Shown here: positions 27,169-56,243 of the stretch, piece after piece
Position numbering within the stretch: position 1 is the stretch's first letter
How the letters are laid out: each line of letters begins with the position of its first letter
Assembly (NCBI GenBank): GCA_963920765.1
Contig: OY987243.1
Coordinates: 14,818,001-14,882,000, forward strand
Origin: Ulota crispa
Lineage: Eukaryota > Streptophyta > Bryopsida > Orthotrichales > Orthotrichaceae
Direction: 5' to 3'
Length of the DNA: 64,000 nucleotides
Translations under genes and position numbers: made by a program
Notes under the pieces: model-generated
What the model was told of the DNA's origin: nothing
Databases searched by the model: none
The model's input: the letters and a program-made list of their open reading frames with translations, nothing else

Positions 27169-28085
27169 TTAACCCCAAAAGGACTATGGCCTTTATTTTG
27201 TCAAACGACACTCAAAGCTACCATTTCTATTGCAAAGAGTAAAAAAGTTTGAAAATTGGTCTTTTTGCATATCTAACCGCAAGGTCTTGTACTAGACTTG
27301 TAGAAGAATGTGCAAAACAAATTTCAAAAGTTTTGACCGCATAGACTGCAAGATATCTGCATTTAAAGTGTAAAAACAAACTTTTTTGCACCTTGCATGA
27401 TTAGATTATTTGACTTTGAACTAAAAAATTTGCACTACAGAGTTTGGAACTTTATTTTTTTGAGGTGAGAAGTTGAGTTGGGAATCTTTGGAAAAAAATC
27501 AAAACAAAAAATACTTAATTTTCATTCTTAAAAAAAATTAGGTAGAAGGTATGAGATTGAACAAAACCTTAAATTGTTAATAACCCTGCAATGGAATTGA
27601 AACTCAATAATCCCAATGGTAGGATTCTTTGAGCAAGAAATCTTCACCCTTTCCAACAACTGTTTTAAAAAAAATATTAAACTTGCGTTCAAAAGTGAAG
27701 TTTATAAGTTATTTTTTCAAGAAGATGCTTGAATTGCCAAAAAACAAGATTGTCCATAACTTTTTCATACTGACTAGTCCAAATGAAATGAATCAAAGCT
27801 TTTGATGTAGACAAAGGTAAAATCTATGAGGCAAGAAAATTTTAAAAAAAATTCAAGTTTTTGTAAACTTGTTTTTTGCTGCCTAGACTCTCCAAATTTG
27901 TGCTTATTTGGGCATAATTATTGCTCCCTGGCATAGATTGGAACAAAAATTACATTCTCCAAAAGCTAATGTGTTTTTCTATCTTCAAAAAAAGTTCCAA
28001 AAAATCTGAATAAAAATTGAAGCTATAGGTACTTGCCCAAAATCCCATTTGTTCCCTGTAGGGACAATGGTCCTTTAGGGGTTAA
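27169..28085. mobile_element. TTAA-flanked element A (piggyBac-like, non-autonomous)
   Basis: The element is 917 bp including both TTAA tetranucleotides. The left end is TTAA-CCCCAAAAGGACTATGG; the right end CCATTGTCC-type TGGTCCTTTAGGGG-TTAA is its inverse. Near the right end GGTACTTGCCCAAAA mirrors the subterminal sequence of element D. There is no open frame for a transposase. Confidence 0.7.
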
Positions 28086-28404
28086 ATAATGTAAAATGTC
28101 AAGAAATTATTGTCAAGCAACCTAAACTCAATATTTAGTGTAGATAATTGACCTTGCATTTAGCAACAAGTTGATTATTGGTCTTAGGGCAATCCCAATG
28201 CACCTCTTTAAATGACTTACTAAACATATCACTATCTTTTGCTTGGTGCAAAATTAGGAATTGTGACTATTACTACTAGAAGCATATAAAAAACTCTTTG
28301 AGTGACCACAATTATGTTTGGATTGGGAATTTGGGAAATCAACATATAGCTCATCACAAGCAAGTGAAATGACAAAAAATATGTTGAGTCATGCCAAACT
28401 ATGC

Positions 28405-29320
28405 TTAACCCCTAAAGGTCCAAGCCCTTCTTTTTTGTGGAAGTCACTAAATACTCCCACTTCTATGGCAATGAGTAGAAAAGTAGGATTTCTTTTTTTT
28501 ACTAGAAATCCAACCATAGGATCTTGTCCTAGACTATAGGAGGTACTTGTGGGAAAAAAAATCAGCTCATTCTAAATGTAGAGGAGTGAGATGTTGACAT
28601 TTGAAGTGAAAAAACAAGTTTTTTTCCTTATTATCCAAAAATTTCAGAAGCCTTTGCTCGCTCTTATATTAAAAAAATTGTTCTACGCAAAGTTGGGGTT
28701 TATACTCTCCATGAAGATGACTAAGTTAGGTATGTGGGAGAATTTTTAAATGAATTGAAGGTGTGAATCATAGTTTGTAAAATCTTGCAATGCCGTAAGG
28801 TCATGAAATTTGCATATACTCTATGCAAAATTGGAGGATTTATGTAAAATTCAAAAATCTAGATTGCTTTGATCCAAATGGAATAAACCAAAGAATCTTA
28901 GTCTACAACAACTTGGAAAAAAAGAAGTCAAAAAACAAATACACAAATTGCTCAAAAAATTAAAGCACCAAATTTTACAATGAGCAAAACGAATGGAGGT
29001 TTGGGAGTCCCTCAAAATGGGCACCTTCCACTCCACTCTCCTTTGCCCAAGTGTCCACACCTTGTGCTCACAATGGCTTGACCCTCTTTGGAGTTGACAC
29101 CCACTTCCAATTGCTTGAACTACTCCTTCTTGCGTTTCAAAAAAATGATGATAACTTCTTCATCAAATGTTGGAATAAGAAAAAATTAGATGTCTCATAG
29201 GTCTTGGAATCCCCCACTTGCAATAACAATTTTAAAAAATCACACAAACTAGTTTAGCTATAGGTACAAGCCTAAAATCCATGTGTCCCTTGAGGGAACA
29301 ATTGGGCCTTTAGGGGTTAA
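28405..29320. mobile_element. TTAA-flanked element B (piggyBac-like, non-autonomous)
   Basis: It is 916 bp with ends TTAA-CCCCTAAAGGTCCAAGCCC and GGGCCTTTAGGGG-TTAA. The subterminal GCTATAGGTACAAGCC resembles element A (GCTATAGGTACTTGCC). No transposase frame. Probably mobilised in trans, as for any MITE. Confidence 0.7.
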
Positions 29321-30521
29321 GAAAGAAAAGAAAGAAAATCTATGACAATAGCATGGAAAATCTTCAAAGTTTATTGTACCATTGCCATGATTTTTCTCTT
29401 ATACAATTTGGTGTGGCAAATCTTGTTTTTTGTCTTTTTTCTTGCTTTCAATGAGCTTTAAGTTGGTTCTTCATTTTCCAAACCCAAATATTATTGTGGT
29501 TCATAAATAAAAATATGCATTTTCTTTCAAAATAATCATAGTTTTTAATTGTACACTAAACAAAAGATAGTGATATATTTGGTGTTTCATTTAGAGTGGT
29601 GCATTGACAATCCTCTAAGTTCTGCACTGCTCAAAGCAACAAAATACATCCTTTTTCTTCTATATCTTGAGATATTCAAGGGGACAATGCTATTTTGTGA
29701 GCATAAAATGGTGAGCACATGAGTCGAGAGCCAAGATATTGTGAGCAGGAACCAATTTTGAGCTCAAAGTTTAAAAAAACACCTTAAAAAACATTAAGTT
29801 TTTCAAGAGATCAACATTTATATAGCACAATTATAAGGTCATATGTACATGTTTATAAGTGAAACTTAATATTTTGAGAAAGCATCTAGACTCATGGCTC
29901 ACGGGTCCCCACTCACAATTTAGCATTCTCCAAATTTATAAAATCCACTTATAAATATATGGCTTGTACAATGCACGACTTTATTTGCATGTGAGAGAGC
30001 AAAAGTGGAGTGTGTATGTGGTTGGAGTTAGATTGATCAATCAAGTAATTTTAGTGATACAATTTCTATATCAAGTGGCCAACTCCTTATACGTACAAAA
30101 TATGCATAAACTACACCAAGAATTACAAAAAAACAAAAAAAAAATAGTTTTTATTCTTAGCTATTATATGAGGACAAATCTACAAAAAAGGTGCTCTAGC
30201 TTTATCAAGAAAAACTTTGTTTGTTATTTAGAAAGTATTAAATGTTGCTTTATTTTAGCATTTAAAGTAATGAACAGCAAAATGAACAAAATCATCTTCT
30301 TTTGGAATTATGACTTACTATACAAACAAAATAAGGGAATTGACCTATTGTATGACCAATATTTATAATATTAGAATAGGTGTGGATCAAGGGAAAAAAA
30401 GCCACTAACTTGAAAATATAGATTGACATAGAAGTTGCAATTTATTTATTTTTTAACTCCAAATTGCACGCATATTATTAGTTAAAGAGTAATAATTAAT
30501 GCTTTTTTTAATTATATTTTT
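29321..30521. other. AT-rich intergenic
   Basis: The 134-residue open frame at 29964-30368 is Lys/Leu/Phe-rich, has no motif and reflects base composition. Nothing else was recognised. Confidence 0.4.
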
Positions 30522-31443
30522 TTAACCCCTAAAATTCTTTTGTGTTTAGAGGTCCAAAACTGCTTCAAAATACTAGTCCCCAAATTAGGGTCAAAATCTT
30601 CATTGAAACTTACTTTTAAACAAATCCAACCATAGGATCCTTTGGTTGACTTGCACAAATGCATTGTCCCAAAATTTCAAAATGAATATCCCCACCATTT
30701 GCAAGATCAATGTGCCTAAATTTCAAAATGTAGGCTTTTTTAGTCCTTCCAGATGGTGAAGTTTTGTTTTTCAAACTTTTTAGAGAAAAACACGTATGTT
30801 GTATTTCTTGTGCAATTTTTGCAATATGTTGGAAAATGGGTTGAAAGCATATATAAAAAAAATTTACCAAAAAAAAATTTGGATTCATTTTTACAAAAAT
30901 TGTAAAGTGAAAGGTATTGATGAATGAAAGATATAACTAATATGCTAATAACTTTTGGAAGAATTTGAAAATTGTTAATCCCAATGGTGAGAATGCTCTA
31001 ATAAACAATTTGTAACTTTATTTTTCATTTTCATTTGAAAATTTTCAAAACTAAGAGTAAAAGATAATTTTATATGTTTTTTCTACCCTCTTCCTACCTT
31101 CATTGCCTGCAAAATAAAACTCCTTTTAACTCTTACCTCATTGTTTGAAATTGAGTGGTTCAAATTTTTTTGAGTAGATATCAATCTATAAAGTTCCAAA
31201 ACAAAAAATAATAATAATAATAATAATATATTTTTTGCTACCCAGTCTGACACTGGAATTGAAAAAACCTTATAACTTTTGCATTACTTATTAGAATGAC
31301 ATGAAATAAAGCTTCACATGTAGATTATGATGAGTAGCATCCATCCTAAAAAATTTATGAAAATTTCCAAATTATGAAGTCAATAGAGCCTGCCCAAGTT
31401 CTCATTAGGCCCAAAGTGGGCTCCTTGGGCCTTTAGGGGTTAA
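30522..31443. mobile_element. TTAA-flanked element C (piggyBac-like, non-autonomous)
   Basis: It is 922 bp with left end TTAA-CCCCTAAAATTC and right end GGGCCTTTAGGGG-TTAA. Size and right end match elements A, B and D. No transposase frame. Confidence 0.7.
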
Positions 31444-31773
31444 ATTGATACTACAAGCAAGATTGGGGGTTGAAAAACAAAATTAAAGTTACAATTTCAA
31501 TGTCAAGCTATAGTTTCAAATTAGTGATGTTTCTCTTGGATCCACACCTACTTTAATACTAAAAATATTAACAGTGTATAGTAGAGTGTGGTAGAATAGT
31601 CAAAAAGGGGTGGTATATATATCAATTCCCTTAAAATAAAGATACAACACCTAAATAAATTTGAATTTTGTATCCAAAAAATCATGATGTTTTGAATGTT
31701 ATAGAATAATCATTCAAACTAGGTTTTGTTTATCATAACCTCAAGACTTGAAACATCTCTATCAAGAAGGTGT

Positions 31774-32359
<586 letters not shown>

Positions 32360-32366
32360 GTATGTA

Positions 32367-32710
32367 TACTCCCTCCGTCCCAAAATGATCTTCCCGTTAC
32401 ACAAAATGTTAAGGGTTAAGCTTGAAAAGAACCATTTCATGAATAGGTTTGACGTCCTCCTATTGTTCTGAAATTTTGAGTTTCAAATTAGGTTTCAAAG
32501 TGTGGTTTCAAAGTGCTTGAAATTTGAATTCTTGAGGCATTTTTGAAGAGTACCAGTGGCCACTCACTTGATGGCATGGCATTGGCTAGCATGCCCATAC
32601 TTTTGGACTATGTGCAAGTGTTACTAGCTCCCTTCCTCCTACAACAAGAAGATCATTTTGAGACACCTAATAAAAGTCAATAGGAAGATCATTTTGGGAC
32701 AGAGGGAGTA
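32367..32710. mobile_element. Stowaway MITE (Tc1/mariner type)
   Basis: The ends TA-CTCCCTCCGTCCCAAAATGATC and GATCATTTTGGGACAGAGGGAG-TA are the canonical Stowaway terminal repeats with TA target duplication; the body is 340 bp. Near the right end a second AAGATCATTTTG is present. It abuts the CT microsatellite with only a TATG-rich spacer between. Non-coding. Confidence 0.9.
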
Positions 32711-33610
32711 TATATATATACTCTTGATCTTACAATATAACTTGAAATTGTATATGATATTCTTTTGTTGCCTTATCATTGCTTACTAGTTGTATTGCAA
32801 ATCTAACATTGAAACAAAATTAGAGCAATTTCAAATTTTTGTCTAATACCAAATCATGAATAATGTAAAAAAAGTATTTCTAAAGGTTGAATTACTAAAC
32901 TGTGATCGTAACTCAATTGTGACAAAAATAACAATAATAATGGCATCTACACTCGATTGTCAAATTGCATGAGGATTATAGATGTGTCACAATCAAGCAA
33001 ACAAATCATAAAGACTCGCATAAAAAGTTTGTATTAAGCATAGATGTTCTATATGATTTGATCCTCAATTAGTTCTATTATAATGCATTTGATTACAAGG
33101 AATTTATTTAGTCAAAATAATTGTTAAATCTTGATTATTTAAATATATTAAACTAATTCCTAATACATATTGCATAAGATTGCAAAATCAGAACTAACTT
33201 TTGAACAAAAATTTCTAAAGTTTGTTTTTCTTTTTCATTTGAACAGATAACCATTAACTGGCTCCAATATGATTGGAAAGAAAAAATGCAGAAATTCAAC
33301 CATTTTTTGAAAATGAGAAATACTACCCTCAAAGGAAAACAAATGTTAAATGTGAAACTCAATAAAAAAACAATTTTTTTTCTTTTCAAAATCCACTTTT
33401 GTGCAAGACAATTTTCAAGATAAATGTAGTCAGATAAGTGGAAAGCTAGGTGAATAGTGCATGATATGGCTCATGCAAGGAAATGCTGACAACTTTTGTC
33501 AATTTTGACATTTTTTTGTCACTTTGGACAAGTTTAGTCAATTAGGACGTGTCATTTTGGACATTATTTCCTTGTATCAAGATTAAAAGATCAATAAAAA
33601 TAAAAAGCTA
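32711..33610. other. AT-rich intergenic with an eroded CACTA-like remnant
   Basis: At 33480-33576, GACAACTTTTGTC, GACATTTTTTTGTC and TTTCCTTGTAT resemble the inside and end of the small CACTA elements. No gene was recognised. Confidence 0.35.
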
Positions 33611-33722
33611 CCCTCTACATGAAAAACATGGTCAAATTTACAAAAAAGTTAGCAAAGATTGTGACCTAATCAACAGATCTTTGTCAACTTTTTGTAAATT
33701 TGACCATGGTTTTCTTGTAGTG
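33611..33722. mobile_element. small CACTA-ended foldback
   Basis: The right end ACCATGGTTTTCTTGTAGTG is the inverse of the plant CACTACAAGAAAA end. The left arm CATGGTCAAATTTACAAAAA is mirrored by TTTTTGTAAATTTGACCATG. About 110 bp and non-coding. Confidence 0.6.
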
Positions 33723-35927
33723 GCAATCTTGAACAAGAACTCACTTGGATCAAGTTAGGGTGTCCAAAAGGCGTCAAAAGGTGTAGGTAGTCTCTAAATT
33801 GCAATTTGACCAAGTGCTAAAATGATCATTAAAAGTACTTAAACAAAGCCCATATATTATGAGGGCTTAATAGATTTTGTAGAAAAAGGCTCCTAAATGA
33901 ATAAAAGGATGGATGTAGGATGGAAAATATATGTTTTGGAAACTTCTTCAAATAATTATGCCTTTGAATACAAAAAATTTGGCCGTTCAACAAACTTGTA
34001 AAAACCCATTTGAAAATATATGAAAAGAAAATCGATAAGAAAAAAATCACACTGTAAAACTATATTAGATTCTTGTGTAAATGCCACAATGTTGTTTTTG
34101 TATGCGGAAGGATATAAAACGACAAGTGATGAAAAAACAAATAGGTGCTTCTAAAATAATTTTGAGTATTCGCAACAGTCCAAGGAATCCCACACCTGGT
34201 TGAATAAACACAACTTACTTCCATGTTCAAACAAAGCTTGGAATGGTTTTGTTTGTCAAGAAGATAGCCTAAGGTTTTCAAAAATGTAGTAAAATTACAA
34301 ACCAAATTTATCAAAATAGCCATAACTAATGAAGTTAAAAAAAGTATCGTGTTCAAATTTTCTTCAAACAAAACAAGACACCTTATCTTCTTATATATTT
34401 GTTGAATCAAAAGAACATAAGTCATTTTTAAGGTTTGTTCATAAAATTTTGTATGACATAATGTACTATTTTAACCTTTATTAACAATTTTTTTACCTAG
34501 AGTCATTTAAAAAGATTTTCTAAATTTGTAAAAGACGATTCTATTGTTTCTTGTCTTTTAGTATTGAAGAAATGCAAGTTTTGAATGGTACAAACATACA
34601 CGGTACACCTTGGTCGATAGACTCTATTCTAACCAAAAATCATCAGCTTTCCCTGAGTTCCAATTTTGTTATATATGTCATTCCTTAACCACATAGTATC
34701 TTCTTAAATCCATGTAAATATTATAAAATAGCAAAAGATAAGATAAAACAAAATACATGGTAAAACAACCACCTTTTAGAGCATTATGGTAAAAATATGT
34801 TTCAGTTTTATTTGACAATATCCAAACATTTAATTTAAGCTTTACATCAAATTTATTTTATAATAAGATGTGAATTTAAAAGCTCAAAAATGTTTTTGTC
34901 TAATAAAAATCTAAATCACGACTGCTAGGGCAATAAATTTTTTCAATATGGTGTTTGAAGCTGAAAATTTACCTTTTTTTGTGAACTACATAGTTGCAAA
35001 ACTTTTTTATACTATATTGAGCAATTGTAAGAAACACATTATTAATATTTTATATTTCGACTTGTAGAAAATTTCTAAAAGTACCATGATACCTTAATCA
35101 GTGGCAAATGCAAACCCATATAGATTTCTATGATTCAGACATACAATACTCATTTTGTTAAAAATGCACAATGGCATGTCTCTCTTTTTTTACTCAAATT
35201 TAGTATATTAAAGATTGATAAAAGAAAAAAAATTGGTGAAGAAATATAAAAGCATTGTTCAAAGCACTATTGTCATAGCAACTGCTAAATTCAGCATCTT
35301 TAAAAGCATTACAGTTTTTATAATTTGATTCAAGTGATGATCATCCATTTTCCTATTGCACTATATTATACTGACCAGAGTTAATATTATTGCATTATAA
35401 ATGTCACTGTCTATGTGTTTACAAAAAAAACCCTAATTGGAGGTATGAGACAAATTTGGCAAGCCAGTTAGATTTAGGAAAAAAACATAAAACATAAAAT
35501 GCTAACAAAAACCATATGAGGTTTCTTTTACTAGTTTTGTGCTCTGTTTGAAAAAACGTGCAAAAAATAAGGCTTGCATTGACTAAGGTTTGTTATATTT
35601 TGAGTGGTTGTGGATTGTGAATAGGATAAGACATGAAGATAGCATGTACGCCACATAGTGCATTTAGGTTGCCCATCACTATTTTTTATTTTTTTTTTAC
35701 ATTTGATATTGTATAAACATTTATTGATACTATAGTAATTTTCATCAATAATTATTATAATAAATTATTTTTATAACAATAAGGACTTGGCAACAACAAC
35801 GTTGTAGAAGAAAAAATTAGCTTTGTACAAGATGTAAGCCATGTGAAATTCCAATATATAGAGAATCACATGCTCCTCCACGTGATCAAGCAATGAATCA
35901 TGAGATAACTTTTCAGTAAGGCAGCTT
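33723..35927. other. AT-rich intergenic
   Basis: No gene, RNA or clear repeat was recognised. Minus-strand frames at 33829-34050 and 34060-34425 have no motif. Confidence 0.4.
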
Positions 35928-38000: not shown

Positions 38001-38330
38001 TTAACTTCTAAATAGCAGGGGGGACATTCTTGTCTCCTCAATGACAAAAAATTACCCAATAGTTTCTAATCATTTTTTAGAAGCCATCATGGAGATGCAA
38101 TTCATCATAAAATGCCAAAAATAGCCTCAATGAATGCCCCTGTATTTTTAAATAATCCAATTTGTGAGAAGATTCACAGACATAGCACTAAGTCCCATGC
38201 TGTACTTTTTGGATGAAGTTAACATGCATTGTTGACTTTTGCAACTTTTAAAAATAATACTATTGGATGGGCACTTGCCGCACTATTGTAAAGCACTATA
38301 AAGTTACCATAAAGGGATAGTAATGGGACA
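38001..38330. mobile_element. eroded relative of TTAA element E
   Basis: It begins TTAACTTCTAAATAGC and shares with element E (48462-48842) the blocks TTGTGAGAAGATTC, ACTAAGTCCCA and AACTTTTAAAAATAATA in the same order. The right terminus is not recognisable. Confidence 0.45.
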
Positions 38331-41269: not shown

Positions 41270-43155
41270 AAACATTTACCTAATATGCCATGAAAAGGTA
41301 TTTTGGCTCATAACCATAATTATTTCCAAATTATAAAACATCATGCCCTTAAATATTTTCTACAATTCTAATTTATATAATGAAGCATGGATTATTACGT
41401 GGTATAAAAAAATTCTATTAACTCAAAAAGTTCCAAATTCCCCATTACAAAGTATTAGGTGTTTGTTCAAAACCAAAAATTTTATATTTAACAAGGAGGG
41501 AAGTGAGAAGAAGAGTGAAGGAAAGGAAGGACAAAAAGTTCACAGTAAGTTCAAGGAGAAGAGAAAGAGAGTGGAAACCAAGGAAAGGTAAGAGTGAAAA
41601 GTCACCTAAAAAGTCATGAGGAATTAAGAGAAACATGGTACAAACAACAAACAAGGTATATTAGTTATTTAACACACAAAAAAATGCAATTAAAGTGCCA
41701 AACACAAGGGTGTAAATTTAAAATACTTTAATCCCTAAATGTGTGTGGCTTCAAATTTACAAGTTATGTGTTTTGCACTTTAAGGTATTTATAGGAATCC
41801 AATTTTGAAAAATCAAGTCCTTCATAAAAACCTTCTTTTTTTGGTATTAGTATTCACTTTGAAACTCCAAAGATGAACAAAGTGCCCTTTATGCTTTCAT
41901 ACATAAACTAAATGGGACAATTAAAAAACTTAACAAAGATCTCATGTTTGTGGAATATTTGATTATGAAAAGAAAAATTTCACAAGACTCTCTTTTTCAA
42001 TTTCACAAGACTCTCACAAGACTCTTCTTTTTAATTCCACAAGACTTTCATTTTTATTTCTACTTGAAAACCTAAATTCTTGGAATGTGTCCTCTTGAAA
42101 ATTAATCATTACATCTCCTAGTTATTTTACTATGTTGTCTAATTAATACCATGCCTAACACTCATTAAAATGTATTCAAAATGTCACTTGTCCCCAAAAG
42201 ATAATGTCATTCTAGAGGATTTACTCAACGTACCTAGCTATATCACAATAGGGTTAGGTGAAGAGCATGAAAATGCTTCCACAAATATCCACCTTGCCAT
42301 CTCTTTTAAGTCACAGCCAAGGGTACTACCAAACTTAACATCTTGACGACAAAAAAGAAAACTACTTGCATGATACCCGCTAAGATGTGCTTCACAACTT
42401 ATAGGAGCCTTCTATCACAAGCAACCCCACAAAGTGGAGAGACTTTTCACAATCCTCATCTCAAGAAAATCTTATCCATATGACATACTCTTGCTAAAAC
42501 CTAAGGACAAAAGCTTTTGAATAAATCAAGCCAATCCTTATCCAAGTAGTTGTACAAAGACGTTTTACAATCCTCTTCTCAAAAAAATCTTATCATATGA
42601 CGTACTATTGTTGAAACCTAAGGACAAAAGCTTTTGGATAACTCAAAATAATCCTTATCCAAGTGGTTGCCTACTATTTCCTAGCTCAATGTATTCTACA
42701 AAAGCTTGACAAACATACAATTTCATAATGTACAAAAATACTTGTATGCATTGTTATTTAAAACTAACCGTTATAGTAGAAGGAGTCAAGCTTCTCTTCA
42801 ACGCATAATAGAATTCAATGTTCTTTGTTAACTCCAACAAGCACTTGATTTATCACATTACTAAACGTTGTAGTTAGAGGAGGTGGCTTTTGATATCACC
42901 ACAACCATTAATGAAATATTAAAGATGGACCAAAATGGTATTCATACCACCTTCTCAAACCTCCACACAAAAATGATAAGAATGAAGTTGAATCTCCTGG
43001 TGCTTTAGGCTTTAAAGAATTCAAATACCAGCACAAAGTAGATTCTCTTTACTTGGCAATTTAAGGTTGTGGAATAGTGGCAATGCCACAACATCTTTAC
43101 CACACACTCTGGGTTGACCTCTGCCATATTGCACTCAACTCCACCACACCTTTAG
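41270..43155 (+). repeat. dispersed repeat, copy R1 (inverted partner at 61-64 kb)
   Basis: Several landmarks recur in reverse order and opposite strand at 61.0-63.9 kb: CATGAAAAGGT near 41290 (63905), CATCATGCCC near 41340 (63850), repeated TTTCACAAGACTC near 41980 (63060), ACGTTTTACAATCCTC near 42565 (62440), ATTCTACAAAAGCTTG near 42690 (62320), and AATGCCACAACATC with TCCACCACACC near 43085-43150 (61040-61110). This indicates one 2-3 kb element present twice. No recognisable protein; type unknown. Confidence 0.6.
42443..42668 (+). repeat. diverged tandem duplication of about 112 bp inside R1
   Basis: TTTTCACAATCCTCATCTCA ... AACCTAAGGACAAAAGCTTT ... AATCCTTATCCAAGTAGTTG is followed by a second copy with TTTTACAATCCTCTTCTCA ... 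AACCTAAGGACAAAAGCTTT ... ATCCTTATCCAAGTGGTTG. Confidence 0.8.
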
Positions 43156-43240
43156 CAAGACCTAAAATTTCTAATAAAAAAACGGTGTACCATAAGAAAA
43201 TACTCTAGCAAGATGATTCCATAGAAAAAGAATATACAAA

Positions 43241-44574: not shown

Positions 44575-45076
44575 GAGATCATCCTCAATCCACCTGACAT
44601 AAGGCCCGTATACCAATCTTCATCTATCAAATAGTTCATCACACAAAAATTACATGATTTGAAGGGCATGAAAATTCTCATCCTAAAAACGTAATAAACT
44701 TTTGGTTTGGGCATTGCATGATTTAGGTATGATATCACATGTTAGCTAACTTCCAAAAAACTTAAAGGGCTCTTCAAATCTAGCCTAAATAAGGAAATTT
44801 TAGTAAAAAGGTTGGTACAATTGCCGTCCCCTTTACTAAAATTTCCTTATTTAGACTTGATTTGGAGAGGCCTCTAAGTTTTTTGGAAGTTAGCTAACAT
44901 TTGATGTAATGTATCTAAATCATGCAATGCCCAAACCAAAATTTTATTACATTTGTAAGATGAGAATATTCATGCCCTTCAAATCATATAATTTTTGTGT
45001 GATGAACTATTTACTATTAATAAATCAAGATTGGTATAGTGGGCCTTTATGTTGAGTGGATCAAGGATGCCATGAG
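44575..45076. mobile_element. 500-bp foldback hairpin, first of a tandem pair
   Basis: Arms of about 240 bp are complementary throughout: ATACCAATCTTCATCTATCA, CATCACACAAAAATTACATG and GTTAGCTAACTTCCAAAAAA at the left are mirrored at the right in reverse order. The centre carries CTAAATAAGGAAATTTTAGT and its inverse. The core is shared with 15435-15809, 45080-45586 and 61341-61790, while the outer arms differ. Confidence 0.8.
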
Positions 45077-45079
45077 GGC

Positions 45080-45586
45080 ATTTGCAATGCACCCAAAAAT
45101 AGTCCTAGTATATTATGTTTGGTTTTTAATAGACATAAATTTTAATGTAAATTTTTAATGATGTGATGTGAAGGCCATTGAAAATGTTATTGTGAAAACA
45201 TAGTAAACTTTGGGTTGGGACATTCACTAATTTAAATACATCCCATCAAGTGTTAGCTAGCTTCCAAAAAAATTAGAGGTCTTTCCAAATCAAGCCTAAA
45301 AAGGAAGATTTGGCCAATGGGAAGATATTGGGATGTCATTCTATTGTCCTCTTGGCTAATTTTTCCTTTTTCAAACTTGATTTGGAGAGACCTCTAATTT
45401 TTTGGAAGCTAGCTAACATTTGATGGGATGTATCTAAATTAATCAATGTCTCAACCCAAAGTTTACTACATTTTCACAGTAACATTTAAAATGCCTTTCA
45501 TATCATAAAAAAGTTGTGTTAAATTTATTACCCATTAAAAGACCAAACACAATATATGGAGACTATTGCCATATGCATTGCAGATA
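45080..45586. mobile_element. 500-bp foldback hairpin, second of a tandem pair
   Basis: The left arm (CATTTGCAATGCACCC, AACATAGTAAACTTTGGGTT, TTAGCTAGCTTCCAAAAAAA) is mirrored by the right arm (AACCCAAAGTTTACTACATT, CATATGCATTGCAG). The core again carries CAAATCAAGCCTAAAAAGGA and its inverse. It adjoins the preceding hairpin with almost no spacer. Confidence 0.8.
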
Positions 45587-45957
45587 CCTTGAATGGAAAT
45601 ATTTAAACTCTCACATATTTTTGACAAGTGAAAAAACAGTGTTTTTCAATCCTGACCCCACATTGATGTATGTGCAGGTAAAGGGAGCCTTACTTCATAT
45701 ACCAATTCTTTGTAGTTGAGCACTAGAGCATACATTAGTAAAGAACGCCATAAAACTCCTTAACTTTTCCAAAATCTTCATTTTGGCAACTTGTTGTTGT
45801 TACAGAAAAACTGCATGCCCTCCCAGAAATCACGTCTACTTCTCTGGTGCTTTTCATCTACCACCACTAGTTTTAATTCGCCACATAGGACACCAAGTAG
45901 GTTCGGGGTGTAATACCTATAATTGATGTGAACATGCGCAATATAACACGCTGCAAC
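45587..45957. other. AT-rich spacer
   Basis: No gene was recognised between the foldback pair and the MITE at 45958. Confidence 0.35.
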
Positions 45958-46909: not shown

Positions 46910-47182
46910 TTGTATGCTTTTGCTGGGAACAAGTACCCCAAGTGACAATTTTGGCGCTTCGAATCTCAACTGACAATTTTGGGGCTTGAGAGCTGGACAT
47001 TTTGCCATTCAATTGGATGACTATGGGCAGCGCCTTGCATCCAACAACATCAAGTTTAGTGACACATCATGCTCCATGCCTTGGGTGACTACCACAACCA
47101 GTCCTCTTTTTGACCACTGCTCAACATAATAAAGACTGCTTGAGGTCCTCCAAAGTTTCTTAGATTAACATTGAAACTGGCT

Positions 47183-47585
47183 TAAGGTAGGAGGCTTGAA
47201 AAGCAACCCTGTCAATTAATGAGTCCTTTAGGTGACCCTAGAATGGATATGAGGTGGTTTTTGAATGGATCGTCATTAGTCTTAAAAGAAAAATTGTCTT
47301 TTATTGCAAGAGCCAATCACAAGTCTTGAATTCACCTAATCTCTTTATACACTATAGGGGGACGGTTTATGGGAGATTTAGAATTATAAATAGGTATCTA
47401 CTACAAAAAACTTTGAAAATTTGTCAACAATTCAAAAATGCTTCAAAAAAATATGAAAAAAATAGAATTACATTTAGCATCCATTTCTCTTTGTTTGAAA
47501 ATTACAAAAAGAAGCTTCCGGGCTGGGAAGACCATGAAAAAGCAGATCAGCCCTTAAAGGGTCGCTTTTTGAGGCTCCTACCTTA
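47183..47585. mobile_element. AGGTAG-family MITE
   Basis: The ends TA-AGGTAGGAGGCTTGAAAAG and CTTTTTGAGGCTCCTACCT-TA are mirror images with GCAACCCT/AGGGTCGC continuing inward. About 400 bp. The open frame inside it is not protein-like. Confidence 0.7.
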
Positions 47586-47847
47586 GTACCAAGATCGAGC
47601 ACATTCCCTTCCACCCCTCATTCCTCGATGTCTGAAACCCATTTTTGATGCTAATTTCGAATTCCCAACCCTCGACCCTCACACCCTCTACCTATGATGT
47701 GAAATTGAGCCCAAAATAAGGAAGAGAAAACAAGCTTGACAAAGAAAAAAAAGACTTGCATAACAGATGACGGCAATGCAAACTCAAAGACTTCCTTTGA
47801 ATGCAACATGCAACACAAAATAAAAAACGTACTGAGAAAGAAGCATG

Positions 47848-48073
47848 TTAACTCCTAAAAGTCTGAGCTTGCCGCTATGACTATGAGGTGTTTTTCTTGT
47901 ATTTAAAATAGATTCACACCTTTATTACATTTGAGATTAATAAAGAAATTGGAGAATAGATCAAAGCAATTCTAGTGAGCTACTCAAGACTTCAAATTAA
48001 AACTTCTTATTGGTAACAAATGCCAATTATATGACAGTGTATATACTATGCCTTATGGTCATTTAAGGGTTAA
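47848..48073. mobile_element. TTAA-flanked mini-element I
   Basis: The ends are TTAA-CTCCTAAAAGTC and GGTCATTTAAGGG-TTAA. It is 226 bp and non-coding, a diverged member of the CCCCTAAAGG family. Confidence 0.5.
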
Positions 48074-48084
48074 GAAGGCTGCAG

Positions 48085-48360
48085 GGTGATGTAGTACTAG
48101 AGCAAACGGCTTCATCATTGGAGAGATGCATATGTTTGTCATCTCAAGCAAAAGCTCCATGCCCTTGAAGCACGCGGCTCCCAAGCACACAAACTGGCAC
48201 ACATTAGCAAGAGCATTGTCTTCCTGCCAGGAATAAGAAAGTTGGAGATCCAAAGCTCAGGTTGCTGTATTGGAGTGCTGGAGCTGCCTCGAAGTTGGCC
48301 ACACAGGCAATGGCCAACGCGCACTTGACGGCAATGCAAGCCATAAGCACCATGGCCATG
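48085..48360 (-). pseudogene. decayed MSRA exon-1 copy
   Basis: The minus-strand frame starts MAMVLMACIAVKCALAIACV, resembling the MSRA transit peptide. A second frame reads DNALANVCQFVCLGAACFKG, matching [20 protein letters not shown] of the intact gene at 52-54.7 kb. The catalytic GCFWG is now ACFKG and the halves are in different frames. Sequence after ICISPMMKP no longer matches. No exon 2 or 3 follows. Confidence 0.65.
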
Positions 48361-48461
48361 TGCAAATGATTTGGGTTGCACTGTGAGCTCAAAATTGGGT
48401 GATAGTTGTGGAGGGTGCAAAGCTCACGTAGTTTGGACAACAAGGAGTGCCAGGAGGTAAG

Positions 48462-48842
48462 TTAACCCTTAAAAGCCAAAGAGGACAATTATTGTCCACT
48501 GGCCATTAAAAAAACACTATGCGGGGCAGAAAAAAGCAGTTCTTTGTTTATTTTTTTTTCAAAAGTGATCAAAAACACATGGTCCATTAGAGATTGCATA
48601 AAACTACCTCATTAAATGCACTCATATTTTTAAGTAGCTCAAATTGTGAGAAAATTCAAAGTCATGGTGTTAAGTCCCAAGCTCCCCATATTGTAATTTT
48701 CATGAGGGCACCATGCACTATTAACTTTTACAACTTTTAAAAATAATATTTTAATGAGAGGGCACCATTGTAGATGTCACTGTTCATTATGCAACACTGT
48801 AGTTGGGCAGGCACAATGATCACCCAGGCGTTTAGGGGTTAA
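48462..48842. mobile_element. TTAA-flanked element E
   Basis: It is 381 bp including TTAA duplications, ends TTAA-CCCTTAAAAGCC and GGCGTTTAGGGG-TTAA. Non-coding. A diverged relative lies at 38001-38330. Confidence 0.65.
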
Positions 48843-49060
48843 GATATATTTGACTTTTGTAAGACTCAAAAGCCAAATTTCTACCTTTGCCCAACAAAGC
48901 TTAGACATTCCTTGGAAGGAAGGCAGGTTTCTTGCGCTTGCTTGAAGAATGTTGCTTTTACATTAGTTAGTAAAAGAAATAGATGAATTTCATCATCTGC
49001 ATCCAATTTCCAGTGAAGGCCTCTTGCGTTTTGCTTGTTGTGACAAAAGGGTTAGGATGA

Positions 49061-49508
49061 AGGTAGCAACATCCATAAGTGTCAAACTGAGGATTTTGGA
49101 GTACAAAAATCAATTGATGAACTTTGAAAATAATATTGTCAAGTTAGGAAGAAAAAATCAAAAATATTGGCATCAATTTCAAAGTTCCAATTGTAAGCAT
49201 TGATTCACAAAGATTTTTCGAAGTCCAAAATCACTAAAATTGTATAGTTGTGTGTAAGAGATGCTAAACATAATGCTTAATGGTTCTTAAATAGTGAGAT
49301 GGGACACTCAAAATTATCATTTTAGTCATCTAAAGGCCAAAACCACCACTTTGTTACCCACAATCATCACTCCATCACTCATAACCATCACTCCGTCACC
49401 CACAACCATCACTTTGTCACCCATAACCATTTGATTTTATATTTAACAATCCTTGACAATGTTAAATGACACACATGGGACATGACAGAGGTGGGTATTG
49501 CTACCTTA
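49061..49508. mobile_element. MITE, AGGTAGGCGCACC subfamily (copy 3)
   Basis: It begins AGGTAGCAACATCCATAAG and ends GGTATTGCTACCT-TA. Interior repeats of CACTCCGTCACCCACAACCA type lie at 49350-49430. The left TA is changed to GA. The terminus overlaps the TTAA target of mini-element G. Confidence 0.75.
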
Positions 49509-49584
49509 ACCCCTAAATGCCTGAGGCACTAAATTCTGATGAGTTCTACATTAGAATTTGATGCCTGAAGCATTTAGGGGTTAA
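49506..49584. mobile_element. 79-bp TTAA-flanked palindromic mini-element G
   Basis: The ends are TTAA-CCCCTAAATGCCTGAGGC and GATGCCTGAAGCATTTAGGGG-TTAA. It is essentially two termini of the CCCCTAAAGG family joined back to back. Confidence 0.7.
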
Positions 49585-51456
49585 GCACCCTACCATCCCA
49601 TGCAACAATGGACCAGTGCAAATGGCTAAAAAAATTTGGATTTTCAAATTTACTCCATTAGTCTTAAAACTCTATGGATCTTAGGAAATACTTTGGCTTA
49701 TCAGCCGCAGTCACAATTGTTGAGAATCTCAAATTCCTTTGGGTTTTTTTTTGAGAGGAAATCACCAAAGTACTATTATTGATTATTATTTTTGTTGTTT
49801 TCTAGCGCATGTTCATGCATGGTTTTGGTATTTCCTTGTTGTTTTTTGAACTTTCCAATTTTGATCAAGCATGGAAGTTTGCCCATTAGAATAGGCGAAA
49901 GAATTAGAGCATACTTACAATTTGGAACTTAGGAAGCTTTGATAAAAAAGCATCCATACCTTATAAGGTGGAATAACTTTGTTCTAAATGACTAACCCAC
50001 AAAAATCATAAATGACCAAAATGATTTTTTCAATTGTGTATAATGATTATCAAATGACTTAATCACAATCATTGTGAACATTTACATTTGTTGTGGATTG
50101 ATTGCTAAGCCTACCTAACTCATCAATGACACTCATAGATGTTTCATCTAAAATGTCTCTCGTTTGTAAAACCAAACACAATTAGAGCATGAACGCAATT
50201 AGAGCACACGATCTTAGTCACTTTTCCAATTGTTTTGTACCCTAAACCTCTCTCCTAGCTTATTTATAGCATCCCCATTCCCTAGTGACACACCACCCCC
50301 TCCCTCCTTTGATTTTAAGTGTGATTGAGAGGGAATATCTAAAATGAGGCCAAGTGAGTTTAGAAACCCATTTTCAGCTCCCTGCCCGAGGGTTTTGTAG
50401 TCAGCTTCCCTTGACTATGAGATAACTTTTATTTTACCTTCTTCAAAAATTAAAAATATATATTTGCAAGTACTCTACATGATGTTCTAAGCTTAGACCA
50501 AACGGATTATGTAGTTGAAATTTATTATTATGATAAAATTTTCCATGAAGTTTATTTAGTGTAATGAATGTTTCAACAAAGCAGTTTCCACTTCCAATTT
50601 TTGTAAATTTGCTTTTAAGCATTGGGTGAGCATGAAATTTCTGAAACATATAGCCAACTTCATTCTCCACAAGAAATTTAAAATTGCCCAAAATATTCAT
50701 AAGGTGGAGGATATCATTTGAGTGACCAAAAAATTATTTGGCACCTCGTGCAAGCTCCAAGAAAAGTTTTGACCATACTTTGAATGTTGTAATCTAATAA
50801 ATTAAGCGCATGCTTAATCTGAAATATTGGAAGGGTGTACATAAGTAAGTAACAAAATAGATCTTGCAGTTAAATAACTGAAAAAGTTTCAAAATTTTTG
50901 TCCAGTGATCATTTTCTTGAGAGAGGTCATTTTTGAGCCATTTGAGCATGTAAACACAAAAGAATTTTAGGGTTAAGTATAGTTAAACACAATTTTATGG
51001 GATCAACCATTAGGTAAATCTTTTTTTTGGAAGAAAATTACATCAAAGTCCAAAATCCATATTGTGAACTGCTGTCCAAATTGGCAAACATGAGATTCTC
51101 AATGGTGGGGATTTTACAAATTTACTTGGATTTGATATCAGATTAGTTTTAAAACATTTGATTTATAATTGAGTATAGAATGACCGGTTCGGATTATGTG
51201 ATTACTTGTTCAACTTTCCAAAAATTTAGAGAATGTGTTGAAGGTTTCATATTGGAGTTATGCTAAATTTTCTTAGCAAGACGGTTAGGGGTTAATAACC
51301 CAACGAAGCTTGTTAAGCAACATAAATTGAAGCTTATTCTTCTACCACTCGTACCACCAAGAAGTATATGAAGAGTCAACAACAATAATAGTAACTCTAA
51401 GCAAGGGGCCTCAAAAAGTGCTAGGAAGGGGAAACAAGGACCTGCACAGACTTGGT
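49585..51456. other. AT-rich intergenic
   Basis: No gene was recognised. The minus-strand frame at 50443-50700 has no motif. Confidence 0.4.
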
Positions 51457-51714
51457 TTAACCTTTAAACGGCCGAGCTACTATGATACATACTATGTATG
51501 CTATTGCATAACTGGCATTTGCTACCAACAAAAAGTTTTAATTTGGGACCTTAACTACCTCACTAGAACAACATTGATCTATATTCTAACTTCTTTGTTA
51601 ATCTCAAATATAATAAAGCTGTGGATGCACTCCAAACACAAGAAACTCCAAACACAAGAAAAATACTTTGTATTGTACTGGTCGCAAAGGGCTGCTCGGT
51701 CATTCAAGGGTTAA
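51457..51714. mobile_element. TTAA-flanked mini-element H
   Basis: The ends are TTAA-CCTTTAAACGGCCGAGC and GCTCGGTCATTCAAGGG-TTAA. It is 258 bp and non-coding, a diverged member lying about 240 bp downstream of the MSRA stop codon. Confidence 0.6.
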
Positions 51715-51957
51715 TAGCCAGCATGATGAGGGCATCCTTCCAACGTGTACAGACAGAGACCTCTCACGACCCTGGGCTCGAGTAAAAAGCATTGCTCAGG
51801 TGAAAGACTCGTCCATTCAAACCTACAAGAGAAAATATTTAACAACAAAGAGAATCTTCATGTACACGAAAAGACCGTTTGTGGTCTCAATGTATTCTAC
51901 AAAAGCTTCACCATTGTACAAATTTTCAGCACTCCCAGGCAAAGCAGCATAGTTAGT

Positions 51958-54665
51958 TCAGCCGTAGCACCGGATGGGGTCCTTGCAGCCCTTCTGGGCT
52001 GACTGCTTGAAACCCATTCTGCCACCCCTGGCTAAATACTGCTGGTGGTACGACTCCGCTCTGTAGAACTTCTTTGCCGGAAGCACCTCCGTCACAATCT
52101 TCCTGTTCAACGACTTCTGCCGCTTTTCCAACGATTGCTTAGCTACTCTCTCTTGCTCGGGTGAATACACGTAGATTCCAGATCGGTACTGTGTTCCCAC
52201 GTCACCGCCCTGTGTGCAGTCACACAGTCACACATCCTCAGCGTCTTTGCCAACCACGAATCTTTCCAAAATCACACAAACAGCCTTCCATGCAAAAAAA
52301 TCAAAGGGAAAATTTCATGGATACTCTTGAAGTTTGCCATATTTTCATAAATACCCTGCCCCTGCTTTTTCAGAAATCTCACAAATACCCTTGGACCAAA
52401 ATTTTCAGGCGTTTGTTGTGCATGTCACTTCCTTCTCCCTTTGTGCGCACACTACATTTTTGTTATGTGTGCGCACAAAGGAGGAAGGAAAGTGGCATGC
52501 ACAACAAAACAAACACCTGAAAATTTTGGTCCATGGGTACTTGTGAAATTTCTGAAAAAGCAGGGGTACCTATGAAAATATGGCAAACTTCAGGGGTATC
52601 CATAAAATTTTCCCAACAAAGAAAATGCAAAGCCCCTCATGTACAAATTTGATTTTTTCTTTTTCTTTGTTCTTTTTTTTCCCCGTTGATACAGGGCCTC
52701 CAAAAGAGTTAAGATTATGTCCCTGGCTCATCACAGAGAAGACCAAGAAATGTGGTTTGTGGTTGAAAGTTTCTTGATTATCGCCGCTACCCTGCCCCTT
52801 GGGAATGTCACGACATTATTGAATTGATTATGGTTTTCAACCTATTTCCAACTTTGCTTCCCTAGGGTTCTGTAATTTACATGGGGGTTCACAAGAACAG
52901 GGTTCCAAATCTGCTACCATAATCCTGGCCCGTTGTTGAGATCCCTTTTGAACCAAATTACGGTTTCAAATTTAAGTGGTTACTTGAAGACTGAATTTTC
53001 AAAACCAATACTGTCAAAAATTCTAGTGGGAAGAGGGTCACCACCAAAAACTGGGTTGAATTGTGAAGAATGGATTCTGACATGCGTTCTACTGCTCCCA
53101 CTTAGCCAACTCAAAGCTGCTGCTATAAGCAAACATGAGAACTCAGTCACCCCTCTTGACGTTGCTATAAAATCAAAGAGAAGAATTCCTTATACCTGGC
53201 GATTCAGAGTCGTTGGATCATGGCGGTCCCAGAACAAGTTGAGCAGACTGTCGTAGCTAACTTCGGCCGGATTGTACTGAACCCTCACAACTTCAGAATG
53301 CCCTGACATTCCAAAACCAGAATAAACTTTGTGGCATGAGTACACACTCCAGTCTGGACCCTCTGACATAAGCAAAGGAAAGACATCAAAACCAAGCAAG
53401 CTGTCAATCAGCAGCCACTCACCACAGCAATCCAGCCAATTTTCTCCACAACGCAAGACCACAACCCTTCGAATGGTTTTAGGGTTAACGCACTTTCCAC
53501 AAGTACACCCCAATTGACCAATCTGTACGCAATCACTGTGCTGTAGCTGATCATGAGGGCATGCATTAATGCACTTTTTAGGCATAGGCCTAAGTGACCA
53601 TTTGAGAGCTGACACTAAAATCCCACCTCTCCCACTTGCACGTTGGCACCACATTTAATTGGGCAGCAGCTTGTGCATCATCTGTCATGTTCTTCAATTC
53701 CCAGATGTCTAGCATGACTACTCCTGTTGTTGAGATAATAAGTACTGCTTGGGATCCTCAGAGTTTCTATGTTTTCGAATAATGTAATCAGTTCCATAGC
53801 AAGATCAACCGCATCCTCTTACAACACCCATTCCTGGACGTCTAAAACCCTACTACTGATACTGACTCCTTTCAATTCCCAACCTTCTGTGAACAATGTC
53901 AAAGCAAGCCCAGAACTTGGAAGATGTCGAAAAGGGCAGGTGCGTGCTCAAAGCATTCTCTTCGAAAGGTGACTAAGAAGGTGTTTCTGAAGCCAACAAG
54001 GCCATGGAGTACCAGTTTTGACGTCTAAAACCCTACTCTTAACACTGACTCCTTTCAATTCTCGACCTTTGTGAACAATGACATAGCAAGCCCAGAATTT
54101 GGAAGAGAAAGTGAAATCGAAAAGGGCAGGTGCGAGCTCAAAGCATTCTCTTCGACAAAAAGGCGACTAAAAAGGAGATTTTGAGAAGGTGATTTTGAAG
54201 CTACTAAAGCCATGGAGTACCAGTTTTGCCGGAGCACACGGCTTCATAGGACGGGGGATGCAATTGGCCTTGCGTGTAGCCCACCTCCGTCTTCGTCACG
54301 CCCGGCACACGTTGGTAAGCAAGCTCCACACCCCAAAAGCATCCGGCACCGAAGCATGCGTACTGGCATCCACTAGCAGGGGCATTGTCATCCGGCCCTT
54401 GCGCAATAGCCACCCCAGCTGGGTCATAGATCGGTTGGGCACCGAATCCCAGCATCTTCAGAAACCCGCCCACAGCTAGCACTTGCCAGTACTGCTGTCC
54501 CTGCTTGGCAACCGTCGTCTTGTTTGCGCATTGCTGCAACCGAACTGGAGCTAGGAAGCTGGAGCCCAATGGACGCTTGGGAGTGTTGAAGCTGGAAGAA
54601 GCAGTGGCGATGGCGTGTGGGCATGAAACTGTGGCAAGGGCAGTGCAGAGAGCAGCTTGCGCCAT
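51958..54665 (-). CDS. MSRA: plastid methionine sulfoxide reductase A
   Basis: The enzyme reduces the S-epimer of methionine sulfoxide in proteins, using thioredoxin, to repair oxidative damage. Exons 54665-54221, 53302-53196 and 52209-51958 join in frame to 267 residues. Residues 1-60 are Ala/Ser/Thr-rich with few acidic residues, a chloroplast transit-type leader. The catalytic motif GCFWG has its Cys at residue 109. Next come [75 protein letters not shown] and the C-terminal [10 protein letters not shown] with two late cysteines that can serve as resolving residues. The sequence and length match plant plastid MSRA4-type proteins. The ATG at 54665 is the first in frame. Intron 1 (53303-54220) contains a tandem duplication that includes a copy of the exon 1 donor; intron 2 (52210-53195) contains a 309-bp hairpin. 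The gene appears intact. Confidence 0.95.
52306..52614. mobile_element. 309-bp hairpin element in MSRA intron 2
   Basis: Left arm features GGGAAAATTTCATGGATAC, AAGTTTGCCATATTTTCATA, CTGCTTTTTCAGAAAT and GGACCAAAATTTTCAGG are mirrored in reverse order on the right. The loop is flanked by GTGCGCACAC / TGTGTGCGCAC. Arms are about 145 bp with few mismatches, so the insertion is young. Non-coding. Confidence 0.85.
53837..54228. repeat. tandem duplication in MSRA intron 1 including the splice donor
   Basis: GACGTCTAAAACCCTACT ... TGACTCCTTTCAATTC ... AAAGGGCAGGTGCG ... CATGGAGTACCAGTTTTG occurs at 53837-54019 and again at 54020-54228. The second copy ends on the real exon 1 / intron 1 border (54221/54220); the first carries an identical donor-like site at 54013/54012. 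Confidence 0.85.
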
Positions 54666-54962
54666 TGCAACTTGCTCTGATTGCAAAAGCTCGGGGTGCG
54701 AAATTCGGTGGTTTGATGAGAGTGAGGAAATGATGTGGCTTGCAATTGATGGTGCCTGTGCTGCTGCTGGCGGTGTCTGTGCGCCGCTAAGTTACTAGAA
54801 TTTTAGTGAAGGAGATCGAACTGGAGCTGAGCAGGGATCGCTTTTTTCTTTCGATTTTGGCAGTGCAGAAAGCCATCCTTGCTACAATAAGGAAGCTATT
54901 TTCATCCATGGAAATGGATGCCATTCCAAGGTATAGATGAAAATTAGTTTCTTTGTCAAAAC

Positions 54963-56243
54963 TAAGGTAGAAATACCATAAACCATTAAAATAAGCCACT
55001 TGGCCTGTAAGATATGAGGAATTTCTTGAGAAATTGAGCTCAATATGTGCAAAAACAAGGATAAGGAAGAATGGAAAAAAAAAAACTTCTAGAATGAATA
55101 TTTTATGCAATATAAATGTGGATTCTTCATTTGGACCTATTCTTGTTTCATAGATTTACTTAAAACAATTACCTCTAGAACTTTGTTGTGAAACAAGTGT
55201 GAATTAATCAAATGAGAGAAAATTATATCTTTTTAGAATCTTTTTCAAAGCTAGCTTTTGTTGATTTTAGAACAATCTACTTTGCCATTAACCCCTAAAG
55301 GACCAGACCCCCTTTTTAGAAACATAGCAATTTTGGGCAAGTACTTGTGATATTGGAGCTTTTCATATTTTAGGCTAATATTTTAATAGAATTTGGGGAT
55401 GAGATTTATCTTTCATATGCACCAAATTTCATGACATTTGGAATTATGAGTAAAAGGTTTTGGCCTAATATGTTACTTTTTTTGTTTGTCGGGTAGCCTA
55501 GGCAGATTTTAATTTTAATTTTTTTTTCAAAAACAAAAATTTTAAATTGGTTTAGGAGATTTATGTGAATGTAGGAAGCTTTGAATCATTCTGTTTGGAT
55601 CAACGAGATGAAAGTTATGAAGATTTTTTGTTTGCGGGCAATTGTGGATTCTTTGCTCCAAAATAAACTTTGAAGTCCTTTATTTTACTCAATTTTCAAC
55701 ATTTTGGAAAAAAAACAAAACGAAAGGATGAATATTGTTTATGACAACATTATGACCATGGGGATTGGCATTTTTCATTTCCATGATTATATTCTTAACA
55801 ATTTAAAGTTCTAAATCATTCTCTACTTCTTTTTACTTATTAATTTTTTTCCATATGTTATATAACTCCAAATGATTTGAAACTTTTTTGACATGTACTT
55901 TATTGAGGTGGAACAAGGAATTTAGAGAAGCACCACCCACATGGCCTTTTTTCCTTAGGAATTTCACCTTCTGAAGGGTAGCTGCCCGGTTTTTCACAAG
56001 TCGTTTTTGAATATTCAAACCATTCTAACTTCTAATCCACGCGGTATAAAACTTTGAAATTTTTTCCACATCTTCTATAACCATTCTTTTACAAGATCCT
56101 ATGGTCACACATGCATAAAAATGTATTTGTTTTCAAATTTGATTGATGCTCTAAAACTAGCAGTTTTGAAGAGTTTTTGGTGAAAACTTTGCTTGGTCTT
56201 TTAGGGGTTAAAGGGGGTAACAGTTTATGGTATTACTACCTTA
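54963..56243. mobile_element. AGGTAG-family MITE interrupted by element D
   Basis: The ends TA-AGGTAGAAATACCATAAACC and GGTTTATGG-type AGTTTATGGTATTACTACCT-TA are inverse repeats. Removing the 924-bp TTAA element D at 55288-56211 leaves about 360 bp, the normal size for this family, so D jumped into an existing copy. Confidence 0.65.
55288..56211. mobile_element. TTAA-flanked element D (piggyBac-like, non-autonomous)
   Basis: It is 924 bp with left end TTAA-CCCCTAAAGGACCAGACCCC and right end GGTCTTTTAGGGG-TTAA. The subterminal ATTTTGGGCAAGTACTTGTG mirrors the right flank of element A. Non-coding; nested in the MITE at 54963-56243. Confidence 0.7.

Follow-up and report, generated by a model that had tools for sequence, protein, structure and literature searches.

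A 64,000-bp stretch of the genome of the moss Ulota crispa (assembly GCA_963920765.1, contig OY987243.1, positions 14,818,001 to 14,882,000; hereafter the window, in whose positions all coordinates are given) carries eight clear copies of short elements, each bounded by TTAA. We are highly confident that these copies are apparently extinct or dormant, transposase-dependent, non-coding piggyBac miniature inverted-repeat transposable elements (MITEs) of a moss. The genome also holds partners in which ends of the same kind enclose a piggyBac transposase (DDE_Tnp_1_7). The copies themselves are MITEs, since no coding capacity was seen in them and ends in common with an encoding element were found, at one or both ends, for 54 of the 71 sampled miniatures. 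The kind of element is known; the host and the abundance are unusual.

Copies in the window, their target and their abundance

Each of the eight copies opens with TTAA and an end resembling CCCCTAAAGG, and closes with the inverted form of that end and a second TTAA. They were named in an initial annotation made from the letters of the window, and were found at exactly the coordinates claimed there, with lengths of 917, 916, 922, 924, 381, 79, 258 and 226 bp (starting at 27169, 28405, 30522, 55288, 48462, 49506, 51457 and 47848, respectively). Their ends have 0 to 3 mismatches each to TTAACCCCTAAAGG. With up to three mismatches allowed the window holds 24 end matches, against 6.1 ± 2.4 in shuffled sequences, and none of 100 shuffles reached 24. 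The eroded copy proposed at 38001 is real as well: its interior matches that of the 48462 copy at 72% over 152 bp, and the element matches a 394-bp element near the partner locus T2 (see below) at 74% over 230 bp. Its right end was looked for and not found. The list of eight copies was correct, but at least one eroded region, 50452-51295, had been overlooked. It has a surviving right end, TTAACCCCTAACCG, at 51282-51295 on the minus strand, and an end-like stretch near 50931-50976.

Four copies share a length of 916-924 bp, but their sequences fall into different subfamilies. Copies 27169 and 28405 are alike mainly over 134 and 66 bp at their ends, and 55288 is similar to them only piecewise. 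A single common sequence for the four copies of about 920 bp is ruled out; there are several subfamilies, and 30522 belongs to a different one. The small copies (79, 226-258 and 381 bp), which had been placed in the same family, represent separate subfamilies, some of them resembling the partners T4 and T1. Full-length relatives of 27169 were found at 79-83%. A genome search with 28405 turned up 7726 first-look candidates; 40 of these were scored, with main matches at 78-85%. Relatives of 30522 are present in loci L008 and L015 (89-90%) and a relative of 55288 in locus L012 (89%); L011 and L016 contain further 79-bp copies similar to the one in the window. The window contains 12 open reading frames (ORFs) of at least 150 amino acids, none of which overlaps any copy, and no part of it is among the listed matches to the piggyBac transposase domain PF13843 (116 of 528 candidates scored). 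This agrees with the earlier statement that no transposase is present here.

Target preference and element structure were studied in a sample of 321 kb, consisting of the window and loci chosen for exact ends or for transposase matches; its length spectrum is not random. The 31 sources of the sample exclude L001, L003 and L005, the latter two repeating elements of L002 and L004. Seventy-five paired elements were recorded, some of them probably paired by chance, e.g., 41418-43015 in the window, where 12 of 18 end bases agree. TTAA precedes 73 of the 74 distinct CCCCTAAAGG sites of the sample and TGAA the remaining one, and the base in front of TTAA varies. The alternative that the copies are Stowaway-type (Tc1/mariner) MITEs, which duplicate TA in a conserved context, finds some footing in that TA is contained in TTAA and that a Stowaway-like element with CTCCCTCCGTCCC ends exists in the window within 32357-32720. 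However, the outer T and outer A were invariant at 74 of 74 sites, the inner TA at 73 of 74, and the partner transposase is a piggyBac one. The invariant outer bases and the piggyBac partner rule out the TA reading, to which we attach a negligible probability. No direct repeat was seen outside TTAA in the 75 paired elements. Identical outer flanks over 2 to 10 bases were counted in 3, 2, 1 and from there on 0 of the 75, compared with 5.2, 1.4, 0.3 and at most 0.15 in shuffles. A target duplication longer than TTAA, or outside it, is likewise ruled out; outer-against-inner matches are at the level of chance.

Insertion into TTAA could also be read from empty sites. The joined flanks of the 30522 copy were used as query (846 first-look candidates, 40 scored) and matched dozens of uninterrupted copies of the MITE into which this element is inserted. 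In the 14 empty junctions read, TTAA stood exactly in register in 6 and within five alignment columns in 12; therefore, the element entered a single TTAA, leaving one on each side. Three relatives of the MITE that hosts the 28405 copy, L042 to L044, are without the insertion, and L044, which reads TTTAAGAA, has one TTAA at this position. Empty sites with some other target had been set beforehand as a possible refutation, and the target shown by these paralogous sites is TTAA. In 9 of the 75 elements the flank holds a short piece like the end of another element, in some cases via a common TTAA. One of the nine is probably due to chance, and such pieces fit insertion into TTAA sites of older copies. 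In locus L025 (6220-8685), TTAACCCTTAACCCC is present at both outer ends, and elements inserted into each other's TTAA form stacked ends.

In the genome-wide search for the end that had been suggested, covering 274.8 Mb, the exact 14-base end occurs 7719 times in forward and 7692 times in reverse orientation (15,411 in total), against 1 and 0 for the control in which the pattern was read backwards. The looser end TTAACCCYTVANNG occurs 23,451 and 23,361 times (46,812), with 190 and 173 (363) for the reversed control, i.e., a density of about 170 TTAA-C-run ends per Mb. With two ends per element, this would correspond to roughly 23,000 elements. Together, the eight copies occupy 4623 bp (7.2%) of the 64,000-bp window, which holds 13 ends of the looser pattern where 10.9 are expected from the genome mean. 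As a rough extrapolation from this one window, the share of such elements in the genome would thus be near 6%.

Transposase-encoding partners and their link to the miniatures

A Pfam search of the genome for PF13843 gave at least 120 matches, the best with an E value of 1.3e-73, while zero matches were obtained in 14 control genomes. Five of the transposase loci were fetched; four of them were extended and are called T1 to T4 here (Table 1), and the fifth, L033, was used unextended at 5.5 kb. In each of the four loci whose two sides were read, TTAA-bounded inverted ends enclose the transposase. The longer relative with DDE_Tnp_1_7 that the initial annotation had advised to look for does therefore exist, within TTAA-C-run inverted ends, and one such relative, T3, matches copies 27169, 28405 and 55288. 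The other result set beforehand as a refutation, a partner with a transposase of another class, did not arise among the partners found. Pieces of T3 and T4 match PF13843 at 3e-44 and 3e-59, respectively. T3 also aligns with the T. ni piggyBac transposase (6x67, 1.8e-17) and with piggyBat (9c0f, 1.2e-11), and both alignments span the three catalytic motifs TIDE, LDNFF and GVDVADQ, in which we take the residues of the DDD triad to have their usual catalytic roles. Patterns of the type CxxC...C...C...C were noticed by eye in frames of T2, T3, T4 and two further loci, L045 and L046, where the pattern sits in a frame other than that of the DDE domain; no Pfam model for a C-terminal cysteine-rich domain (CRD) was reported for T3 or T4.

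The link from the miniatures to these partners was found by direct comparison. In blast alignments, the 5' end of T3 matches the palindrome end of 27169 and 28405 at 81% over 52-53 bp, and its 3' end matches the other end of 28405 at 88% over 33 bp, with an additional block about 200 bp inward. The ends of T4 match the 79-bp copy. In the larger sample, bases 15-60 of both ends were compared with all eight partner ends, with a threshold taken from 300 shuffled ends. Of the 71 miniatures, 25 match both ends of T3 beyond the 14-bp tip and 2 match both ends of T4; for another 27 the match to a partner is confined to one end or to one orientation. Copies 27169, 28405 and 55288 are the ones in the window that match T3 at both ends. 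The piggyBac-like interpretation given earlier is thus supported by the TTAA target and by piggyBac-encoding partners with like ends. The superfamilies Kolobok and Sola3 have likewise been described with TTAA duplications, and TTAA alone does not tell the three apart; TTAA occurs 23 times in a paper on Kolobok (PMC6004289). Still, with same-type ends enclosing a PF13843 transposase in every one of the four loci, and with the 25 miniatures that match T3 at both ends, it is very improbable that the copies are MITEs of Kolobok or Sola3, although a second TTAA transposase may lie elsewhere in the genome, the profile search having covered PF13843.

There are several observations that weigh against piggyBac MITEs mobilized by such partners. 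T1 and T2 have weaker end pairs than T3 and T4, and the 5.5 kb of L033 showed none. No partner end was matched by 17 of the 71 sampled miniatures. Copy 30522 matches T3 at neither end and has only a weak one-end match to T2, and the interiors of the copies of about 920 bp bear little similarity to T3 once the outermost 220 bp or so are left aside. Because of the latter, T3 may not be the direct parent of these copies. Two of the 14 empty 30522 junctions have no TTAA nearby; at the 28405 site L043 reads GTAAGAA in both long matching orientations, and L042 has neither the element nor TTAA. We ascribe the missing TTAA in these relatives (2 of 14 and 2 of 3) to mutation. When an empty site was sought for the element nested within T3, the query matched only itself. 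To the same side belong the lack of a palindrome in 55288 and some other copies, the somewhat overstated palindrome contrast and the fact that no intact transposase was seen, the last two of which are given with their numbers below.

Palindromic end, age and proposed mechanism

Of the 75 paired elements 31 are 900-966 bp long. These elements of about 920 bp form several subfamilies at 70-92% identity, some with segments in inverted order. One could suppose that these elements have some function themselves, such as a transcript or a constraint of replication or packaging, for which length and internal blocks are maintained, as so many elements fall into this length range although subfamilies differ by 10-30% and some segments are inverted. 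But common descent preserves length within a subfamily, a few founders would explain the mode in a sample that is not random, and the window copies lack any ORF of at least 150 amino acids. We consider such a function improbable.

Many of the elements in this class have a palindrome at one end, with its centre about 24-25 bp inside TTAA. The half-sites vary by subfamily and the changes are compensated, as in CTGTCCCC/GGGGACAG, CTATCCCC/GGGGATAG and GTGGCT/AGCCAC. Palindromes were scored in 30 of the 31 copies; the second L018 copy, which has the same end pair as the first, was dropped here but kept in the counts of 71 and 75. At least 8 of 11 pairs were found in 15 of the 30 copies, against 34 of 1500 shuffles, a contrast that is somewhat overstated because the shuffles did not repeat the choice of the better end; the other end averages 4.2. 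A score without fixed centre agrees, with means of 6.7 for the better end, 4.5 for the other end and 4.4 for shuffles. According to PMC11707139, two C-terminal domains (CRDs) of piggyBac and piggyBat bind a subterminal palindrome, and the right end of piggyBat is without such a palindrome. From the positions given there, the centre of the first piggyBat palindrome would lie near bp 25, close to that of the moss one. By analogy, the moss transposases may use their palindrome as piggyBac and piggyBat do.

A mechanism may be proposed along these lines. A T3-like transposase would bind the palindrome at one end via a pair of C-terminal cysteine-rich domains, and the bound transposase would then gather the second end. 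The miniature would be cut out at TTAA and pasted into another TTAA, with the four bases duplicated. The class of about 920 bp would consist of internal-deletion or rebuilt derivatives, which retained T3-type ends and spread in subfamily bursts, while the other miniatures (79 bp, about 240 bp and about 390 bp) may have served other transposase lineages.

Signs of recent activity were not seen in the fraction of copies scored. The subfamily of L018 has 38 other scored copies, full-length or nearly so, at 92-93% and spread over the chromosomes, as expected of one old burst. One further L018 copy is identical at 100%. It is read as a local inverted duplication, because it lies 7 kb away in inverted orientation and has the same 8-base flanks. 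Of the 40 scored relatives of the 28405 copy, none exceeds 85%. The nearest dispersed copies found differ by about 7%. Internal stops are lacking in 10 of the at least 120 PF13843 matches. The transposase domains of T1 to T4 have stops inside. L033, L045 and L046 account for 4 of the 10 stop-free matches, but here the transposase changes frame or is interrupted by a gap; some of the splits might be introns. In none of these seven loci was an intact transposase seen. The system looks extinct or dormant on account of the divergence of about 7% and the absence of an uninterrupted frame in the seven loci. Internal stops in the PF13843 frames, judged by eye and uncounted, are mostly TAG and TGA and not TAA, as expected from deamination of methylated CHG and CG sites.

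A protein module of about 90 amino acids (in ORF 253-987 on the reverse strand of L033) was found at 41 places in the genome. At 26 of the 41 it lies 1.5-2.9 kb upstream of a listed PF13843 match on the same strand, compared with 0 of 41 in the control arrangement. It had no match in Pfam (E<=1) or in the Protein Data Bank (PDB; E<=5). The module is present in T1 and was not seen in T2 to T4. In one lineage of piggyBac it forms a 5' exon or else a second gene. We tentatively suggest, at somewhat less than even chances, that mosses host a large and old piggyBac radiation missed by standard plant annotation, in which transposase lineages and palindromic ends diverged together, leaving many natural pairs of a transposase with its binding site, and in which a T1/L033-like lineage gained the conserved upstream module.

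Relation to known elements and other features of the window

The moss elements resemble the piggyBac superfamily, as represented by T. ni piggyBac and Myotis piggyBat, in the PF13843 domain and its catalytic motifs, the TTAA duplication, the short C-run inverted ends, the subterminal palindrome near one tip and the Cys/His-rich C-terminus seen by eye. The asymmetric ends are a further likeness to piggyBat. The piggyBac group is known mainly from animals, and animal piggyBac elements are about 2.5 kb long; here the host is a moss, and the four encoding elements read are 5-8 kb. The IFP2 element is given as 2472 bp in PMC10803768. The N-terminal regions of piggyBac transposases are described as non-conserved and predicted to be disordered (PMC11707139); unlike these, a subset of the moss elements has a conserved upstream protein module.

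The MITEs of coral and the Daphnia mPok elements are reportedly flanked by TTAA, with ends in common with a larger encoding element. Here, by difference, the commonest sampled class is about 920 bp long, and the 46,812 ends are found in 275 Mb of a plant genome. Like ours, these animal MITEs are reportedly non-coding and tied to piggyBac (PMC2872659; PMC4912750). The plant MITEs Stowaway and Tourist are similarly short, non-autonomous, inverted-repeat and high in copy number, but differ in target, ends and transposase.

The initial annotation called piggyBac rarely described in land plants. This was fair: a 2022 review of land-plant transposable elements counts six superfamilies with inverted repeats and never mentions piggyBac in its main text (PMC9033089), and the main text of a 2025 review of plant MITEs has neither piggyBac nor TTAA (PMC12595863). 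Nevertheless, the superfamily had been listed for land plants earlier. Table 2 of PMC4438587 has PiggyBac among the superfamilies present in all groups including land plants, and a table of the C-fern genome paper has 1230 PiggyBac fragments (PMC6890710). No paper on a moss piggyBac family was found among the open-licence papers listed for piggyBac with moss, bryophyte or liverwort; the matching passage of a moss genome paper uses "piggybacking" in another sense (PMC10619864). The moss genome bears a heavy load of piggyBac MITEs, and a repeat annotation without a piggyBac class would probably label such elements as unknown. The subfamilies with compensated palindromes are natural material on the choice of ends by piggyBac transposases, a widely used genome-engineering tool.

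Table 1. Elements in the window, with their positions, and transposase-encoding partners in the same genome
Feature	Position	Ends and structure	Relatives
917-bp non-autonomous piggyBac-like element	27169..28085	T3-type ends, palindrome end at right	both ends match T3
Older inverted-repeat MITE, host of the 916-bp copy	28185..29619 (flanks 28185-28404, 29321-29619)	inverted arms	L042-L044
916-bp non-autonomous element	28405..29320	T3-type ends; inserted in a MITE	both ends match T3
High-copy host MITE around the 922-bp copy	30352..31613 (flanks 30352-30521, 31444-31613)		other copies are empty sites
922-bp non-autonomous element, another subfamily	30522..31443	left end TTAACCCCTAAAATTC	
Eroded relative of the 48462 copy	38001..38284	left end TTAACTTCTAAATAGC	
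226-bp element	47848..48073		51457 copy (79% over 138 bp); an L022 copy (85% over 195 bp)
381-bp element	48462..48842	one end only resembles T1	T1 5' match
79-bp near-palindromic MITE	49506..49584	T4-type ends	87% over 30 bp to T4 5' end
Eroded element region	50452..51295		76% over 530 bp to L009 element
258-bp element	51457..51714		240-bp class; an L011 copy (78% over 258 bp)
924-bp non-autonomous element	55288..56211	T3-type ends; no clear palindrome (3/11 pairs)	both ends match T3
Partner T1, 5027 bp		end pair 16/20 bases	
Partner T2, 6010 bp		end pair 16/20 bases	
Partner T3, 8033 bp with a 926-bp element nested in it		end pair 17/20 bases	
Partner T4, 5746 bp		end pair 19/20 bases	

Further repeats were noted in the window. 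The CTCCCTCCGTCCC-ended element, which we take to be of the Stowaway type, lies within 32357-32720 directly after a 580-bp CT microsatellite (31777-32357). A cluster of overlapping long inverted repeats, with arms of up to 155 bp that are 73-93% complementary, lies at 44629-45588. A 256-bp stretch with short inverted arms at 46664-46919 matches the interior of an L025 TTAA element at 75%, and might be a small, unrelated insertion. A tRNA scan of the window gave none.

An open single frame at 20569-21051 on the plus strand encodes a cytosine deaminase of fungal type, with cytosine deaminases as best PDB chains (about 100 bits). A 58-bp tandem repeat of 5.6 copies spans 21019-21341. As it begins within the last codons of the deaminase ORF, it seems that the end of the gene was duplicated repeatedly in the downstream direction. 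Two ORFs at 53190-54791 on the minus strand each match part of a peptide methionine sulfoxide reductase (PF01625); they are probably exons of one gene, whose product is possibly targeted to plastids. In the genome at large, LEAFY domains were found, and their sequence is in keeping with a moss host. Two exons, joined at a junction placed by eye, match 4bhk_A, presumably the Physcomitrium LEAFY protein, at 158 of 161 aligned residues (377 bits), with 290 bits to 9fwy_A and 274 bits to 2vy1_A, which we take to be the Arabidopsis protein.

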